Shown piece after piece: positions 14,886 through 24,429 of a stretch of DNA of 64,000 bases; position 1 is the stretch's first letter; every line of letters begins with the position of its first letter. This DNA comes from Arthrobacter sp. EPSL27 (lineage in GTDB: Bacteria; Actinomycetota; Actinomycetes; Actinomycetales; Micrococcaceae). The position numbers and the translations under genes were made by a program. The stretch covers positions 313,090 through 377,089 of the forward strand of contig NZ_LNUT01000005.1 in NCBI RefSeq assembly GCF_001512305.1. The letters run 5' to 3'. The notes under the pieces were generated by a model. That model ran no database searches. It had not been told where the DNA came from and saw only the letters and a list, made by a program, of their open reading frames with translations.

Positions 14886-16907
14886 TCAGCGCGTTGAAGC
14901 CAAAGGGGTATACGTCAGGGTCCTAAGGGCCAGGTCTCCTGCGCCGGCCACCAGCTTGAACGACTGCTTTTCCGACTTTGGGAACACCAGTGACGTGAGC
15001 GTCTTCTCCCCGTCATTGATGAAGACTTCGAGGGACGAGTGGTCAACGAACACGGTCAGGTCCACGCTGCCGTCCCCGGCCGGAACCGGGGCGGTGCGTC
15101 GCTCGGCGAACAGCGGTCCAAGGTCTGCACCCCCGTCCGCCGGCTGTTCACGCGTGACAAAGGCTGTCCCGGCCGTGAAGTCGTAGCCCACGGTTGCGAA
15201 GATTGAGTCTTCGCTCGCCAACTGCAGAAGCGCCTCGGCCGGGTTGCCGTCCCCACCGTCCGTTGCGGAGCGCTCGATGGTCAGGTCCAGCCGGTAGGCA
15301 CCGCCTTGGACAGCGGGAAGGCCTGCAGTGCCTGCCGCGGTAATTGGTGTTGGGCCGGTAGAGGAGGCTTCCCCTTCAAGGCGGGCCAACGTCTGTGACG
15401 GGCTTGAGACGAGTGTCGGTTTCCCTTCCACGGTCTTGAGCCGGATATCACGCACGATAGAGTCCATCCCGCCGTGCCAGTCGTCTGTGGGGAGTTTCCG
15501 GGCGTAGTCCCAGTTGTTGATCCAGCCCAGGGCCTGCCGCGACTGCATCCGCTGCCCGTCCGTGAGCCGGGGATCGTCCCAGGTCACCGCAGCGTAGAAG
15601 TCGGAGCCGGCGTCCAGCCACTGATGCTTGTCAGTGGCAGGCGTGAACGTGTGGCCGTCCCAGGTTCCAGTCCAATAGGCGACGCCGGTTGTCCTGCCTT
15701 CTTCGGTTCCATTTCCGCTGGCTGCCAGGACCCAGGTCCGCTTCGCGGGGTCGCCGTCCAGGTCCAGCTGGAACAGGTCCGGGCATTCAAGGACGCCGAG
15801 GCCGGGCAGCTCAACGCTCGAGGCGTACCGCCACGTCTTGAGGTCCTGCGATGTGTACATTCCCAGCTTGCCGCCCTCGGCCAGGATCATCAGCCATTGC
15901 CCGTTTGCGTCATCGCGGACGATCTTTGGGTCGCGCCAGTGTTCCTCCCCGGGATTCTCCATCACGGGGTTTCCCTCGTAGGCGGTAAAACTGTAGCCGC
16001 CGTCGTTTGAATGGAAAAGAGACTGCCGCTGGACCCCTTCGTCCTGCTGCGTCAGGACCGAAATGACGGCGCCGTATCCGAAGCCGGCCGTGTTCTGGTA
16101 GTCCACCACCGCACTGCCCGTTTCGATGTCGCCCAGCCCGTTTTCGTACTTGTGGATGGCAACGCCTTCGTCCTTCCACGTCAACAGGTCGGTGCTGGTG
16201 AGGTGGTACCACTCGGTGCCGTTGCCCTCAGGGTAGTCAGCGTTGTACAGGTAGTAGTAGTGCCAGAGTCCGTCCAGGAAGAAGGGGCGCTGCGGGTCGT
16301 TCATCCAGTCCTTGCCGGGCGTGATGTGGTACGCCGGGCGGTACTGCGAAGAGCCGGCAGGACGCTCAGGCGATGTCCCCGGGGCCGGTGTCCGGTCGAT
16401 TCTGCCGAGGTCGCCGAGCATGGCATCAACGGCTTCAGGCGTGATGCAGTCCGGCCGGCGGACTTCCCCTGCCCCGGCCTGCTGTGTTTGATCATCGAGG
16501 CTTGATCGTAGGAAGACGTCGCTGCCGGTCCGGGCTGCGGCAACCCACCCGTCGGGGCAGGTGATGCTGCGGAGATCCTCCACTCCGGCGGACCGGATGG
16601 GTTGGCCGTCCTCCAGCGTACGATCGCCCCCTGAGAGCCAATATGTGCCGTAAGTGCCTCGGGAAGCCTTGAGCGCGGACTGTGCCGAGGCAACGTTCTC
16701 CAGGGCGCTTTCAGCCCTGTTCGCGGCCGTGTCCGGCGTGTGGATCTGGGGAATGAACGCCACCAGGGCGGCCAGCAGGGCGCTGGCAGCCAGCGCCACG
16801 GCGAACCAGGTGCTACGGCTGGCGGCGGGTAAAGACAGGTTCCATTTGTGGGACATCATGGCCGTTCGGGTAGGGCCGGTACCGGCAAAAAGGGGCGGGG
16901 ACGCCAT
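14886..16907 (-). CDS. GH32 family fructan hydrolase with N-terminal pilin-like module
   Basis: A 673-residue protein. Residues about 190-673 are a GH32 five-bladed propeller plus beta-sandwich: the nucleophile block WMNDPQ near 209, the transition-state RDP in EHWRDPK, and the acid/base in ECPDLF. It should cleave fructans such as levan or inulin, or sucrose. Before that lies one membrane segment (residues about 32-52) followed by AESALENVASAQSALKASRG and GTYGTY, which looks like a type IV pilin or pseudopilin body rather than a plain linker. A later start at 16859 (MMSHKWN) is possible; neither has a strong ribosome-binding site. It follows the levansucrase gene by 69 bases in the same direction, so they probably form one sucrose-levan operon. 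Confidence 0.85.
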   Translation of the reverse strand: MASPPLFAGTGPTRTAMMSHKWNLSLPAASRSTWFAVALAASALLAALVAFIPQIHTPDTAANRAESALENVASAQSALKASRGTYGTYWLSGGDRTLEDGQPIRSAGVEDLRSITCPDGWVAAARTGSDVFLRSSLDDQTQQAGAGEVRRPDCITPEAVDAMLGDLGRIDRTPAPGTSPERPAGSSQYRPAYHITPGKDWMNDPQRPFFLDGLWHYYYLYNADYPEGNGTEWYHLTSTDLLTWKDEGVAIHKYENGLGDIETGSAVVDYQNTAGFGYGAVISVLTQQDEGVQRQSLFHSNDGGYSFTAYEGNPVMENPGEEHWRDPKIVRDDANGQWLMILAEGGKLGMYTSQDLKTWRYASSVELPGLGVLECPDLFQLDLDGDPAKRTWVLAASGNGTEEGRTTGVAYWTGTWDGHTFTPATDKHQWLDAGSDFYAAVTWDDPRLTDGQRMQSRQALGWINNWDYARKLPTDDWHGGMDSIVRDIRLKTVEGKPTLVSSPSQTLARLEGEASSTGPTPITAAGTAGLPAVQGGAYRLDLTIERSATDGGDGNPAEALLQLASEDSIFATVGYDFTAGTAFVTREQPADGGADLGPLFAERRTAPVPAGDGSVDLTVFVDHSSLEVFINDGEKTLTSLVFPKSEKQSFKLVAGAGDLALRTLTYTPLASTR

Positions 16908-16976
16908 TCCGGCGCCCCCGTCCGTTACCTCTTGCCAGGCCGTCGCGACAGGCGGTGGCCTGGCGGGCGGTGGAAA

Positions 16977-18575
16977 CTACTTGTAGAGGCCCTCGCCGCC
17001 AACTTTGACGTTGGTGGGCAGGTAGCCGAACGGCCCCAGGCCGTTTTGGCCGAAGCTGCGGTCCACCTCGGAGACGCCATCGCGGAAGTTGATCTTGACG
17101 GTGGGGGACAGCGATCCGCCCCTGACCCCGTTGACGTTGTCGATGAAGGACTGGACCAGGCCGCCGGGCTGCACATAGTGCGAGTAGGCCTGGAACTGCC
17201 GGCCGTTCTGGTTGGGGGTGGGCGCTTCCGGGGATTCGGAGGGCAGGTTGAGGTCGGTCGGTGAGGCCAGCGCCAGGCCGCTGTTGTTCATCGGCTGGTA
17301 GTCGGAACGGACGCCGTCGCCTACGAAGCCGTAGACACCGTCCGGGCCGCGCATACCGGCCGCATAGGTGAACTGGTGGCTGATGGTGAACAGGTAGTAC
17401 TTGTTCTTGCCGCCTTCGTTCTGGATGAAGATCTGCGGGCGCTCGGTCTGGTCGTTGACGCAGTTGGCGGAGAGGATGGGCGGCAGGAAGGACCACTTTG
17501 TGAGGTCCTTGTTGTCCGCCACGGCCAGGCCGACGTTCGCCGTCTGGTAGTAGGCGCCGCTGCTGTTGACCTCAGCTACGGATTCGGCGTTCGCGTCGCC
17601 CGGGCGGTATCCGAGGTCCTCGGCCTTGCACTCGTAATCACCGCGGGTTCCGCCGGTGTTGCCTTCGAAGACCATGTACGTCTTGCCCGGGTGGGCGGGA
17701 TCTTCGAACGTGTAAGGGTCGCGGAAGGCAAAGCCCGGGTTCTGGGCCTTGGTCTGGTACATCGTGCCATCCGGTTCCAGCAGCTTGGTGTGCTGGAAGC
17801 CGTCGAAGGTGACGCCGTTCTTGTCGGCGTGGATCTTGCCCAGGGCCTTGGCGATGGCTGCGTCCGGGGCGACGCCGCCGCCACCGGCGTTGCGCTCGGC
17901 CACGTCGTAGAAGGTGGTGGCCGTGTAGAAGACGTTGACCTGATTGCCCTGCATCAGGCGGGTGGAACCGGACCATTCGGTGTTTCCGATAGAGGCGCCG
18001 TCGGCAAAGACGTGTCCGCCGTAGTTCCACTTGTCCGTGGCCGGGTCGGCGTTGGTCTTGCGGAAGAAGTAGCCAATCCGGGCGTTCCAGTGGCGCTGGT
18101 CGAACCCGTAGCCGGCGTCGCGGTCGGCGACCAGGGAGAACACGACGTCCCAGCCCTTGTAGCTGATCTGGTTCGCGTTCTCGTCGGTGAGGGACCAGGT
18201 GTCCCAGACCCAGACGTCCTCATTCATGGTGGGGAAGTCCTCGGGAATTTCCGGCATGGTGACGTTCGGGCTCATGGAGTTCACGCCGGGAGCTACCGTG
18301 GGGTCGCTCTGGGCCATGATCTGCTTGGCATCGGCGCGGGTCCACTTGGAGGTGAAGTCCGACGCCGGATCGTAGGCCTGCTGGCTGTGCGCGGTGGGAA
18401 GGGGGAAGCCCGGCGTCGGGGCCGGCATCTGCTGGGTTGCCGGCGGGTCCGACGGCTCGTTGGCGTGGGCGGCCGGAACGGCTAGGAGCGTGCTGACGGC
18501 AAGGGCCGCCAGGGTTGCCGCGGCAGCAGAGCGCTTCCGCAGCTTCCGGGGTTGATGGGGGTGGTGCTGAGGCAT
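16977..18575 (-). CDS. Levansucrase (GH68), secreted
   Basis: A 532-residue precursor of a GH68 fructosyltransferase, which makes levan and glucose from sucrose outside the cell. A basic N-terminus and hydrophobic core end in AVPAAHANE (cleavage near residue 38). The catalytic nucleophile is Asp125 in VWDTWS, the transition-state stabiliser lies in FRDPYTFED near 273, and the acid/base Glu in DQTERPQIF near 400. ATG 18575 begins at the signal peptide and follows a GAGAAGAG stretch; the open frame continues 43 codons upstream without meaning. A LacI-type operator lies about 235 bases upstream. The GH32 enzyme downstream could hydrolyse the levan made. Confidence 0.92.
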   Translation of the reverse strand: MPQHHPHQPRKLRKRSAAAATLAALAVSTLLAVPAAHANEPSDPPATQQMPAPTPGFPLPTAHSQQAYDPASDFTSKWTRADAKQIMAQSDPTVAPGVNSMSPNVTMPEIPEDFPTMNEDVWVWDTWSLTDENANQISYKGWDVVFSLVADRDAGYGFDQRHWNARIGYFFRKTNADPATDKWNYGGHVFADGASIGNTEWSGSTRLMQGNQVNVFYTATTFYDVAERNAGGGGVAPDAAIAKALGKIHADKNGVTFDGFQHTKLLEPDGTMYQTKAQNPGFAFRDPYTFEDPAHPGKTYMVFEGNTGGTRGDYECKAEDLGYRPGDANAESVAEVNSSGAYYQTANVGLAVADNKDLTKWSFLPPILSANCVNDQTERPQIFIQNEGGKNKYYLFTISHQFTYAAGMRGPDGVYGFVGDGVRSDYQPMNNSGLALASPTDLNLPSESPEAPTPNQNGRQFQAYSHYVQPGGLVQSFIDNVNGVRGGSLSPTVKINFRDGVSEVDRSFGQNGLGPFGYLPTNVKVGGEGLYK

Positions 18576-19068
18576 GGTGCTCTTCTCGGGGAGTTCGAAG
18601 CCATCTGTGGAAAAGGGTTTCCCGGCACTCCGGCTCCCCGATGACAAAGAGCTGTCGCGGGGACGCCTTTGTGGTGGGTGATAAGGGGTTCGTTCCCCTG
18701 TCATAGGCGGCTGGGGGTTTCCTGTGCTGCGCCTGCAAACACACTAGGCACGGCTTTGGAGGGGTTTCAAATCCCCCGACCTGTGGCCCCGCAGGGGTGG
18801 CGGGCGAGAATGTAAGCGCTTGCACCTTCCTTGTTGTGCGCGCGTGGCACAATCCGGCTGGATCAGTCAAGTATGTTGGGAAACTCACAGTTGGTGCGGG
18901 GCGCGGAGTCGGTGACAGGCCTCGTTACTGTGGTCGTTGGGTACGGTCCCATGAAAAGTGTCAGGGCCAGTCCCGGCCGCATCCCGACGCCGGCGGTGCA
19001 CCGCGACGTTGGTTCAGCGTCGGGTGCGGGGCTTCAGCCAAACCCCGGCTGGCCCTAAAGTTGAGCGC
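18576..19068. promoter_or_regulatory. Divergent intergenic region between levansucrase and map
   Basis: This 493-base stretch carries no convincing gene. On the levansucrase side it has a long leader with several weak hairpins, a possible minus-strand promoter TTGAAA-N17-CTAGTG near 18770-18745, and a LacI-type operator at 18811-18824. On the map side, TAAAGT at 19056-19061 lies seven bases before the map ATG. Confidence 0.5.
18811..18824. promoter_or_regulatory. LacI/GalR-family operator-like palindrome
   Basis: TGTAAGCGCTTGCA is a 14-bp palindrome with the central AAGCGCTT and CG core typical of LacI-family repressor sites. It lies upstream of the levansucrase gene. No LacI-family gene is in the window, so the regulator is encoded elsewhere. 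Confidence 0.6.
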
Positions 19069-21693: not shown

Positions 21694-22359
21694 ATGGCTG
21701 CGACAACTTGCGGACGGTGTGGAAAGTTCAGCCACATGACTAGCATCGGGCCCGCCATCACAGCGGAACTGGGCTCTTCCGGCCCCTACATCATCGAGAA
21801 CCCATTCCGCTGCGACAACTGCCATGGACTTAATATCGGAGGGTCTCAGGTATATAGCCTTCCGATGCATACCAGCAATGAGGGTGCGATGTCTGCATTC
21901 TGGCACTCAAAGGAACCGGACTACTGGCACCCACAGTTTGTCCAAGGTCAGGACTACCCAGACGTACCGGAGCACGTAGAACGGCCAGCATCGGAGGCCC
22001 ACATGTGCATGAGCGTGTCCGCGCACATGTCCGCGATTCTAATGGCCCGGTCCGTGATAGAGGCAGTCGCTAAGGACAATGGAATCGACTCGGGAAGTCT
22101 CTTCAAGAAGATAGATGCGATGCACAGCAAGGGCTTGATCACCGAGTTCGCCAAAAAGACTGCTCACACCATCCGCACGTTTGGGAATGATATGGCTCAC
22201 GGTGACTTCACGGTTGAAGTGGACGCTGCTGACGCGAAAGGGGTCCTGACCTTCATGGATTACATCCTGCGCGAGGTGTACCAGGCGCCGGCGGAGCTGC
22301 AGCGGCTCCAAGACGGTGCCGACGCCCGGAATTCGCATAGGGAAGCCCAGAGACAGTAG
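21694..22359 (+). CDS. DUF4145 domain protein with N-terminal zinc ribbon
   Basis: A 221-residue protein. The N-terminus has CGRCG (6-10) and CDNC (about 40-43), a four-Cys zinc ribbon. Residues about 105-205 match DUF4145: SAHMSAILMARSVIEAVAKDNG, then LITEFAKKTAHTIRTFGNDMAHGDF and a final helix. The FGNDMAHG block resembles the catalytic R...N..xH segment of HEPN-superfamily RNases, to which DUF4145 has been related; activity is not proven. DUF4145 genes are frequent beside restriction and other defence genes. GGGGAGG precedes ATG 21694. The stop codon sits in the loop of a perfect 15-bp inverted repeat. It is the first intact gene of the island. Confidence 0.75.
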   Translation: MAATTCGRCGKFSHMTSIGPAITAELGSSGPYIIENPFRCDNCHGLNIGGSQVYSLPMHTSNEGAMSAFWHSKEPDYWHPQFVQGQDYPDVPEHVERPASEAHMCMSVSAHMSAILMARSVIEAVAKDNGIDSGSLFKKIDAMHSKGLITEFAKKTAHTIRTFGNDMAHGDFTVEVDAADAKGVLTFMDYILREVYQAPAELQRLQDGADARNSHREAQRQ

Positions 22360-22382
22360 TTCAAGGTCTGTCTCTGGGCTTC
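22342..22382 (+). terminator. Perfect 15-bp inverted repeat over the DUF4145 stop codon
   Basis: GAAGCCCAGAGACAG (22342-22356) and CTGTCTCTGGGCTTC (22368-22382) pair perfectly, with the TAG stop inside the 11-base loop. There is no U-tract, but the strength of the stem suggests transcription end or mRNA stabilisation. Confidence 0.55.
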
Positions 22383-22447
22383 CAGCTTGGGTAACTCAAC
22401 CGGTCTTACTTACCCCTAAGATGGAGCGGTTCGAAGCGAGCCATTCA

Positions 22448-22457
22448 GGGGGGGGGG
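22448..22457 (+). repeat. Ten-G homopolymer acting as ribosome-binding site of the HNH-like gene
   Basis: A run of ten G ends three bases before ATG 22461. It is the only Shine-Dalgarno-like sequence for the gene. Runs of this length are prone to slippage, so expression could vary between cells. Confidence 0.65.
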
Positions 22458-22460
22458 ACT

Positions 22461-23330
22461 ATGGGCCAGAAAATCCCGTGCGTATTCTGCGGTAGTGTGA
22501 CTGCACCGACCAGCGACGAGCACGTTCTTCCGCAGCATTGGAAGAAGCATTTCCCAAAAGAGTCGGGTACAGGCCTCCGAGTCAGCACCGCCCAAGGCAT
22601 CACAGATCGCCCGCCGCGCAAACACATAACTCCCTTCGACATGAAGGTTCCCAACGTGTGCGCCCCTTGCAACAACGGATGGATGCGCCTCATGGATGAG
22701 GCCATGAAACCCTTAGTTTTTGACCTGGCCAACGGAGTTAGGCGAACGTTGTCATCCACGGAAGTTGATTCGTTGATCCAGTGGGTCACGAAAGTAGCTC
22801 TGGTCCGAAGCTACGCAGACCGGAAGTCCTCCATGACTTTTGCCGACAACGTCTTCCGCCGCTATTACGCCCAACGTACAGAGACGCACCATCGCTCAAC
22901 CCAGATCGCCTGGTGCGACGAACACGACGGCGCATTATCCGCGAGCACTACCCTGATCAGAACGGGGCGTCCCCGAGGCCCCCTCGAATCTTCCGAGCGG
23001 GAGCCCGCAAATGTCATCTCGCTAAAGCTCGGTCATCTGCTCATCCAGTGCGGCCTATCTACAGGGTCGAAGTGGTCCACGTCCTCAGTTCGACTCATGA
23101 TGACGTCAAGTCGCCAGTTCGTCCCTGGACGCCTATTTCCGGCAGTTGCGGGTCGCCCGTTTCGTTTACCCGAACAACCTTTGACAGAAGATGAGGTTGA
23201 CCTGGTCATCGAGCCCCTTCACCTCATGGGAGCAGCCAAATACGTGGGGTCGCCCGTCCCACCCGACACAACTCGTCTCATGGGGCCACTCGCGCTGCAC
23301 ATGCCACGGGTTCCAAACCCGCCAGCGTGA
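22461..23330 (+). CDS. HNH-like zinc-finger protein, putative nuclease
   Basis: A 289-residue protein with an N-terminal split treble-clef arrangement: CVFCG (7-11), SDEHVLPQHWKK (18-29) and VCAPCNNGWM (66-75). CxxC, EHxLP, and CxxCN are the layout of HNH-like nucleases in which the His is the general base and the Asn positions the metal; this suggests DNA cleavage but is not proof. The remaining 200 residues are a mixed alpha/beta domain I do not recognise. It carries no signal peptide. Expression relies on a G10 tract. It lies 101 bases after the DUF4145 gene, with TAAGAT near 22415 as a possible own -10, so the two may be separate units. Confidence 0.65.
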   Translation: MGQKIPCVFCGSVTAPTSDEHVLPQHWKKHFPKESGTGLRVSTAQGITDRPPRKHITPFDMKVPNVCAPCNNGWMRLMDEAMKPLVFDLANGVRRTLSSTEVDSLIQWVTKVALVRSYADRKSSMTFADNVFRRYYAQRTETHHRSTQIAWCDEHDGALSASTTLIRTGRPRGPLESSEREPANVISLKLGHLLIQCGLSTGSKWSTSSVRLMMTSSRQFVPGRLFPAVAGRPFRLPEQPLTEDEVDLVIEPLHLMGAAKYVGSPVPPDTTRLMGPLALHMPRVPNPPA

Positions 23331-23384
23331 CTTCCGCAACGCCGATCAGACGCTCCTGGCTAAGGCTGAGGGGATGGCGTCAGC

Positions 23385-23429
23385 GTCTGCCCAGCTGCGC
23401 CACTCCCGTCTGCCCAGCTGCGCCACTCC
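23385..23429. repeat. Tandem repeat, two 22-bp copies
   Basis: GTCTGCCCAGCTGCGCCACTCC occurs perfectly at 23385-23406 and 23408-23429, period 23. It lies in the 198-base gap between the HNH-like gene and the membrane-protein gene. Confidence 0.8.
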
Positions 23430-23528
23430 AGCGAGCAGATCACCAGCCGGCACTACGTCCAGAAAACTCACGAGGCGCCAGACATGACAGTACTACTGCA
23501 GGCCTTCGGCGCACCAACAGGAGACTAA

Positions 23529-24260
23529 ATGACCGCCAAGCCCAACCTTGCGGCCTTCGCGGGCGTCCATTCAGCTCTGGAGGCCTTTTCCAAGGCCATG
23601 CCCGCCGTCGATCCTGCAATCTTTCGCACCCAAGAAATGATCGGGGCGGAAATTAAGGCCGCGTTCGAGCCGATAACCAAGTCGACAAACACTCATCTGC
23701 ACGCGGTTCTTGAGCCTTTTGTTCAGTCCATGAACCTCCAGTTGCAGGCAGCTTTCGGCCTGCAGGAGTTGCAGAAGCAGATAGCAATGACTATCGCGCC
23801 GACAATGGACGTCTTCCGCCAGGTGACTGTCCCTGCTCTAACTTCGATTGCAGCAACTTTTTCTGCAATCGATCTCGCCGCTCAGCTCCCAGATCTATCC
23901 GTGCTGGCGCATTTCGGAGAGATGGTTGCGGCCGGCGAGTTTGCGCCCGACTTTGTCGATGCCGCGCATGCGGCAGTCGATGGGGTTGTTGGCTACTCCG
24001 AAGAGATCCAGGATTTTTCCCTCAGGGAGACCGTCGCGAGTGTTTTCGACGCCAAGGTAATCGCGGATGGTACGTACATCTTTGTCTTCATTGTCTGGCT
24101 CGTCGGATCCTTGTGGGTCGCCGGCCTCGGCGCAGAAGCGAAGGCGATCAGTGACGCGGTGGGATTCAGTAGCGCCGCGGGCTCGCATGTTGTTGCCAAG
24201 GAGGTCTCTTCCAGGACCATGAAGGTCGTTATTAAGAAGCGCAACACTCGCCGCCGCTGA
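23529..24260 (+). CDS. Unknown single-TM protein of the island
   Basis: I do not recognise this 243-residue protein. The first 150 residues are Ala-rich, Phe-spaced amphipathic helix. A single strong membrane segment, YIFVFIVWLVGSLWVAGLG, lies at about 179-197, and the C-terminus ends in a basic VVIKKRNTRRR. AGGAG precedes ATG 23529 by a good distance, and the gene ends 47 bases before the tRNA-Arg terminator. A single-TM partner beside two putative nuclease genes would fit an effector or membrane sensor in a defence locus, but this is guesswork from context only. Confidence 0.5.
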   Translation: MTAKPNLAAFAGVHSALEAFSKAMPAVDPAIFRTQEMIGAEIKAAFEPITKSTNTHLHAVLEPFVQSMNLQLQAAFGLQELQKQIAMTIAPTMDVFRQVTVPALTSIAATFSAIDLAAQLPDLSVLAHFGEMVAAGEFAPDFVDAAHAAVDGVVGYSEEIQDFSLRETVASVFDAKVIADGTYIFVFIVWLVGSLWVAGLGAEAKAISDAVGFSSAAGSHVVAKEVSSRTMKVVIKKRNTRRR

Positions 24261-24351: not shown

Positions 24352-24356
24352 CGGTG

Positions 24357-24429
24357 TGCCCCAGGAGGGAATCGAACCCCCGACCGGCGGATTAGAAGGC
24401 CGCTGCTCTATCCCCTGAGCTACTGGGGC
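24357..24429 (-). tRNA. tRNA-Arg (anticodon TCT), island integration target
   Basis: Acceptor GCCCCAG/CTGGGGC with A73, D arm GCTCAGGGGATAGAGC, anticodon loop CTTCTAA giving anticodon TCT, and T arm with GGTTCGATTCC are intact. CCA is not encoded. The 3' part is the proximal att copy, so the working tRNA has an island-derived 3' end. Confidence 0.95.
24358..24395 (-). repeat. attR: 3' part of tRNA-Arg supplied by the island
   Basis: This is the partner of the 38-bp copy at 20577-20614, with two mismatches (24362 and 24385). It lies within the working tRNA. Confidence 0.9.

Follow-up and report, generated by a model that had tools for sequence, protein, structure and literature searches.

The 64,000-nucleotide stretch of DNA from the soil bacterium Arthrobacter sp. 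EPSL27 that was analysed here (the window) carries, on its minus strand, a gene in which a hydrophobic segment, a module of about 110 amino acids and a complete GH32 enzyme follow one another in one protein. From the layout of its N-terminus the module had been likened to a type IV pilin, and the locus raises the question of what a pilin-like domain would be doing between a membrane segment and a fructan-degrading enzyme. It could mark the protein as a subunit of a type IV filament, it could be a pilin fold put to some other use, or it could resemble pilins by accident.

The gene, its enzyme and the levansucrase neighbour

A single open reading frame on the minus strand covers window positions 14886-16907, amounting to 673 amino acids when counted from the listed ATG. 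The closest relatives begin with MMSEK, MMPEK or MSxK-like sequences in a comparison of N-termini, and for this reason the start of the gene likely lies at position 16859, 16 codons after the listed ATG. The gene would then occupy 14886..16859 (minus strand) and encode 657 amino acids plus a stop, beginning MMSHKW; all residue numbers of the GH32 protein are counted from this start. The 16 codons ahead of it overlap a terminator-like hairpin at 16896..16920, likewise on the minus strand.

The N-terminal membrane segment spans residues 18-36 (16752..16808, minus strand) and is preceded by positively charged residues. Its core, from W18 to I36, has a mean hydropathy of 2.44 and contains no acidic residue. 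The module follows at residues 44-152 (16404..16730, minus strand), with limits drawn from two structural models and an alignment of module-bearing proteins, and is joined to the enzyme by a variable linker at residues 153-172 (16344..16403, minus strand). The N- and C-terminal domains of GH32 together take up residues 178-649 (14913..16328, minus strand). The original prediction had described one membrane segment, then AESALENVASAQSALKASRG and GTYGTY, fused to a full GH32 domain; both sequence elements are present in the protein as quoted, and the architecture is as described, read on the minus strand.

The enzyme is complete. The N-terminal domain (residues 178-487; PF00251, E 1.5e-67) and the C-terminal domain (residues 511-649; PF08244, E 1.1e-22) score 228.8 and 81.1 bits against cut-offs of 22.1 and 21.9, and the protein carries WMNDP185, RDP309 and ECP358. 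The corresponding WxNDP, RDP and EC motifs, which we take to be the catalytic motifs of GH32, are present in 54/54 module bearers. In the PDB the nearest solved structure is 9h8i_A, named endolevanase LevB1 (E 3.4e-106, the next match being at E 3.3e-66), and PMC9881289 describes LevB1 as the endolevanase of Bacillus licheniformis. Judged by these resemblances, the GH32 enzyme is likely a LevB-like endolevanase with levan as its substrate.

Upstream lies a levansucrase-type (sacB-like) gene of family GH68 at 16977..18704 (minus strand; PF02435, E 5e-138). Its translation probably begins near 18575, and by eye its N-terminus looks like a Sec signal peptide. A GH68 gene beside a GH32 gene is known as the sacB-levB arrangement (PMC11540611). 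The expectation that the enzyme sits beside a levan-making partner thus holds for this genome and carries over poorly to the genus: a same-strand GH68 gene was found within flanks of about 4 kb in just 21 of 78 genus loci of the GH32 enzyme longer than 8 kb, a count that omits two loci of other genera with GH68 and three distant paralogs without it. Sixteen of the 21 GH68-linked loci have the module and five lack it; the module therefore does not simply track the GH68 partner. The terminator-like hairpin also lies between the two genes here, as one of three terminator-like sites in the scanned region (3.4 are expected in shuffled sequence), and a hairpin followed by T occurs in 17/28 sacB-linked relatives in an ad hoc scan run without a null. 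Read-through from sacB into the GH32 gene as one operon is possible, with this hairpin in its way. Elsewhere in the window, G+C falls to 0.58 at 22001-24000 beside a tRNA-Arg gene (24356-24429, minus strand); the reading frames there encode a DUF4145 protein and two proteins without a Pfam match, and the stretch is possibly a small island.

A predicted pilin-like fold and the missing pilin hallmarks

The pilin comparison had been staked on the predicted fold of the N-terminus, a fold unlike pilins being the outcome that would speak against it; the best PDB matches of both models built here are type IV pilins. The first model was made with AlphaFold2 for the N-terminal 174 residues, using three aligned sequences: the window protein and its orthologs L022 and L023. 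It has a mean pLDDT of 67.5 and a pTM of 0.59, and ten-residue blocks of the module reach 80-90 but fall to 54-55 at residues 71-90. The model consists of a membrane helix (15-34), a second helix (45-67), a long loop, four strands (95-101, 104-111, 114-119 and 122-128) and a closing helix (141-150); a proline-containing break, evident in both sequence and model of the window protein, separates the membrane helix from the module helix. The second AlphaFold2 model is that of ortholog L023, which shares 41-44% identity with the window protein in the N-terminal part. Its mean pLDDT is 68.2, with ten-residue module blocks at 54-87; it shows an extra hairpin (residues 81-90), and the fourth strand is missing. 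The two models are not independent, as the same three sequences underlie both.

Foldseek searches of the PDB placed the Thermus type IV pilin 4bhr_A at rank 1 for the first model (E 0.23, probability 0.84, the next row having a probability of 0.12) and for the L023 model (E 0.54, probability 0.69). The match has a TM-score by target of 0.63, and E-values of 0.23 and 0.54 are not significant alone. In VIA-align, where a Z below 8 may reflect merely a common arrangement, the top seven rows for the first model are all type IV pilins, with Z from 8.3 to 4.6, and the next is an unrelated protein at Z 4.4. The row at Z 8.3 (6xxd) has an rmsd of 11.2; 4bhr_B, with an rmsd of 2.5 over 78, and 5g2f, with an rmsd of 3.1 over 79, are the cleanest rows, both at Z 7.1. 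The top seven rows for the L023 model are again all type IV pilins, at Z 6.2 to 4.4 and including 4bhr_B (Z 6.2, rmsd 2.5 over 75). Rank 8 goes to an unrelated DUF155 protein (Z 4.3) and rank 9 to the pseudopilin PulG, and from rank 14 on unrelated pantothenate synthetases appear (Z 3.7 and below). The models support a pilin-like fold for the module, with a helix packed on an antiparallel beta sheet.

For the comparison at the level of sequence, pilins were drawn from the window's family and class via PF07963. Among 34 pilin loci a prepilin-like protein was found in 32, and three that were much longer were dropped, leaving 29 ectodomains. When the module profile was aligned to these with hhalign, the helix and the GTY stretch fell in register with a score of 18.3, at a probability of only 3%; 60 column shuffles gave at most 13.7 (0/60 reach 18.3) and the reversed alignment gave 10.3. 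Against 31 families of reading frames clustered blind from the fetched loci, the best non-self match was a 15-member pilin family at 18.5, a small lead over the next at 16.6. At least two cysteines after mature residue 50 are present in 25/29 of the pilins, with the last two 22-43 residues apart. The module has Cys101 (codon at 16557..16559, minus strand) and Cys138 (codon at 16446..16448, minus strand), 37 residues apart and invariant in 41/41 aligned modules, and a disulfide between them is probable. These likenesses in sequence are weak; they lend common descent of the module and the pilins some support, short of proof.

The main competing account of these likenesses is that the module is merely pilin-like, an unrelated helix-plus-meander domain of independent origin. 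It draws on the lack of a significant sequence match in Pfam, NCBIfam or the PDB: the module of the window protein has neither a Pfam match near cut-off nor an NCBIfam match, a Pfam scan of 41 modules gave a best E of 0.013 with none near cut-off, and a profile of the 41 modules matched no pilin in the PDB, only fructosyl peptide oxidases weakly (E 0.25 and 0.58). A class-wide profile search for other module carriers matched 1/394 genomes, the window's own, and the fold scores are modest. That pilins fill the top seven VIA-align rows for both models, and that the helix-GTY and two-cysteine pattern agrees with actinobacterial pilins, weighs against an independent origin, which is regarded as somewhat unlikely.

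A pilin-like head does not in itself make a pilin. Type IV pilins are defined by a class III signal (PMC10191384, PMC8179133), and the original prediction had seen no prepilin peptidase site in the protein. Relatives bear this out: under a strict motif pattern the class III, or prepilin-peptidase, motif occurs in 0/54 module bearers, and an acidic, Glu5-like residue in the 19-residue membrane core likewise in 0/54. The informative proteins number 53, since the module-bearing gene at L163 (genome G331) is apparently frameshifted inside the module region. With regard to filament machinery, the window's own genome has no N_methyl match and two Peptidase_A24 genes. N_methyl (PF07963) matches occur in 4/149 genomes of one family sample, none of them in the window's genus, and in 71/216 genomes of a class sample.

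These results bear on a further possibility, that the protein belongs to the true modular type IV pilins and brings its enzyme into a filament. The position of the pilin fold, N-terminal to a functional module as in the modular pilins described in PMC8179133, would suit such a protein, as would the two Peptidase_A24 genes of its own genome. Against it stand the absent class III signal and Glu5-like residue, the absence of N_methyl matches from the own genome and from the genus members of the 149-genome sample, the proline break between the two helices of the window protein, and the occurrence of the membrane segment in proteins that have no module. A filament subunit of this kind is highly improbable; it was rejected as a candidate on account of the missing prepilin signal, and membership of the GH32 protein among the type IV pilins is not supported by its sequence.

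Distribution, history and selection

The module is present in 55/206 genomes of the window's Pseudarthrobacter-type genus, while a match to the enzyme at E <= 1e-100 is found in 100/206, many of them without the module. Searches of a larger family sample gave 16/295 genomes at E <= 0.01 with a single-sequence query and 15/295 at E <= 0.05 with the module profile; in each case seven matches are strong and all come from the same genus. The weak matches (nine and eight, respectively) were all set aside. Inspection by eye of 5/9 and 5/8 of them revealed mostly frames that overlap a likelier gene on the opposite strand, with those at L014 and L021 lying in real-looking but unrelated proteins. Among the 80 loci from a tblastn search, the module profile matched L022 (Pseudarthrobacter sp. 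NamB4) and L023 (P. oxydans USM2) only. The same fusion, sought elsewhere as had been proposed, is therefore found repeatedly in the genus, and these searches gave no convincing case outside it. L057 was rejected as a module carrier; its tblastn match begins at query residue 78, its N-terminus is a different domain and the module profile is negative. A different N-terminal stretch of about 180 amino acids precedes GH32 in L035-L041, L043, L047, L049, L057, L064 and L069, which are mostly planctomycete.

The GH32 tree was built by a quick method from 114 loci, reduced to 95 rows by merging near-duplicates, and is unrooted. Presence (54 rows) and absence (41 rows) of the module require six changes on this tree against a shuffled mean of 31.1, and the starred branches alone force five. 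The more distant rows without the module are L024 and L025, from Microbacterium and Cryobacterium with GH68 adjoining, and the paralogs L237-L239. In L024, L025 and the Niallia locus L032, which also contains GH68, a membrane segment and a stretch of 24-46 residues precede the GH32 motif and the module is absent. Of the 41 module-free rows, 37 have a hydrophobic N-terminal segment; L151 and the three distant paralogs lack one. Module-free orthologs retain the membrane segment, the linker and the enzyme. L159, which has no module, resembles L169 and L144 in its segment and in the frame upstream of its start, and a stub kept before the enzyme reads AQSQAEQ in L213 and L219 and AQGQAEQ in L153.

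This pattern suggests a single insertion of the module, early in the genus, into a LevB-like enzyme that was already anchored, followed by about five losses. The anchored state of the ancestor is suggested by the GH32 tree and by module-free relatives that also have the N-terminal membrane segment; the direction from gain to loss is a reading helped by the outgroups, given that the tree is unrooted. The membrane anchor itself probably lies in the separate N-terminal segment ahead of the module, since a hydrophobic segment persists in the 37/41 module-free rows and in the sacB-linked L032. The proposal that the pilin-like N-terminus anchors the enzyme is accordingly divided: anchoring in the membrane is likely, and the pilin module is probably not the anchor.

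Fourteen columns are invariant in the alignment of 41 modules. Among close pairs (pN of GH32 at most 0.2, L163 excluded), pairwise dN/dS has a median of 0.25 for the module and 0.166 for GH32, each over 441 pairs, 0.341 for the linker (391 pairs) and 0.296 for the membrane segment (410 pairs). The linker has both the highest of these values and the lowest mean pairwise identity (0.355) of the four regions. By these substitution rates the module is kept by purifying selection wherever it occurs, and with its presence in 55 genomes and its invariant columns it is more than a product of chance. Its repeated loss nevertheless shows that it is dispensable. A selectively minor relic, tolerated and without specific role, would accord with some five losses on our own reading of the tree and with orthologs that keep everything else when the module is gone; fourteen invariant columns and a median dN/dS far below 1, and lower than that of the linker, make such a relic decidedly unlikely.

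Purifying selection on the module would also be expected if it were a binding domain. The N-terminus might be cleaved or shed and the enzyme secreted, with the module binding levan, a wall polymer or a partner protein; binding domains often adjoin catalytic domains, and this module does adjoin one. A hydrophobic core of 19 residues would be a long one in a signal peptide, and no conserved signal-peptidase motif is apparent by eye in the N-termini that were inspected. Secretion with a binding module is considered unlikely. A second, module-free GH32 paralog in the genus (L237, L238 and L239), about 40% identical, has a twin-arginine-like N-terminus by eye, and the genus may therefore have both secreted and anchored types of GH32.

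A proposed role and its relation to known systems

The reading preferred here, with a probability of roughly one half, is that the protein is an anchored, endolevanase-like GH32 enzyme in which a pilin-fold insert serves as a folded spacer or docking piece. One N-terminal helix, left uncleaved, would hold the LevB-like enzyme on the outer face of the cytoplasmic membrane. Between this helix and the enzyme would stand the pilin-fold domain, made up of a helix, a beta meander and one probable disulfide, which would have been inserted once, early in the genus, into an enzyme that already had its membrane segment. The domain would stay out of any type IV filament and most likely act as a rigid stand or docking surface, fixing how far out and in which direction the enzyme is held in the cell wall. 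In its more specific form, this becomes the tentative proposal that a membrane-bound levanase once captured a pilin ectodomain, devoid of processing site and polymerising helix, as an internal cassette that now serves display or docking apart from filaments, which is thought possible at less than even odds. As the module has the predicted fold of a pilin head and lacks the requirements for joining a pilus, an enzyme may here have taken over a pilus-type fold for use as its stand or docking piece.

A fusion of a pilin fold to GH32 or to another glycoside hydrolase is unreported in the titles and abstract openings of the open-access literature searched, which is weak evidence of absence. If the proposal of a captured ectodomain is correct, a pilin fold is at work apart from the type 4 filament machinery, and this in a genus whose sampled genomes yielded no classical N-methyl pilin. 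The natural orthologs that carry the module and those that lack it, being alike in other respects, also provide a ready comparison for the effect of a folded spacer on a Gram-positive-type surface enzyme.

LevB of the sacB-levB operons is a close known counterpart of the enzyme, which has the GH32 catalytic motifs, finds its nearest solved structure in LevB1 and, at this locus, adjoins a GH68 gene. GH32 genes of other genera with GH68 in the locus (L024, L025 and L032) have an N-terminal membrane segment, as does the window enzyme. The window enzyme differs from LevB in the pilin-fold module of about 110 amino acids that separates its membrane segment from the catalytic part, and in having a GH68 neighbour at only a minority of the longer genus loci.

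The closest solved folds to both models are TTHA1221, TTHA1222 and PilA4 of Thermus thermophilus, with identities to the module over the aligned part of 13-18% for the TTHA1221 and TTHA1222 rows and 8-11% for PilA4. Compared with these pilins, the module has an extra C-terminal helix and no filament-forming N-terminus. A parallel in design is offered by the modular pilins PilB and PilC of Streptococcus sanguinis, in which a pilin-fold module is followed by a linker and a C-terminal functional domain (PMC8179133). The window protein shares this order of pilin-fold module, linker and functional domain; it differs in having no class III signal and no Glu5, and in the models its anchor helix is discontinuous from the pilin helix. 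In modular pilins a module has been grafted onto a pilin, whereas in the window enzyme, on our own reading, a pilin-fold module has been inserted into an anchored enzyme. Modular pilins lend the filament to other functions; here, if the reading is true, the opposite has taken place, and the head of a pilin has been lent to an anchored enzyme.
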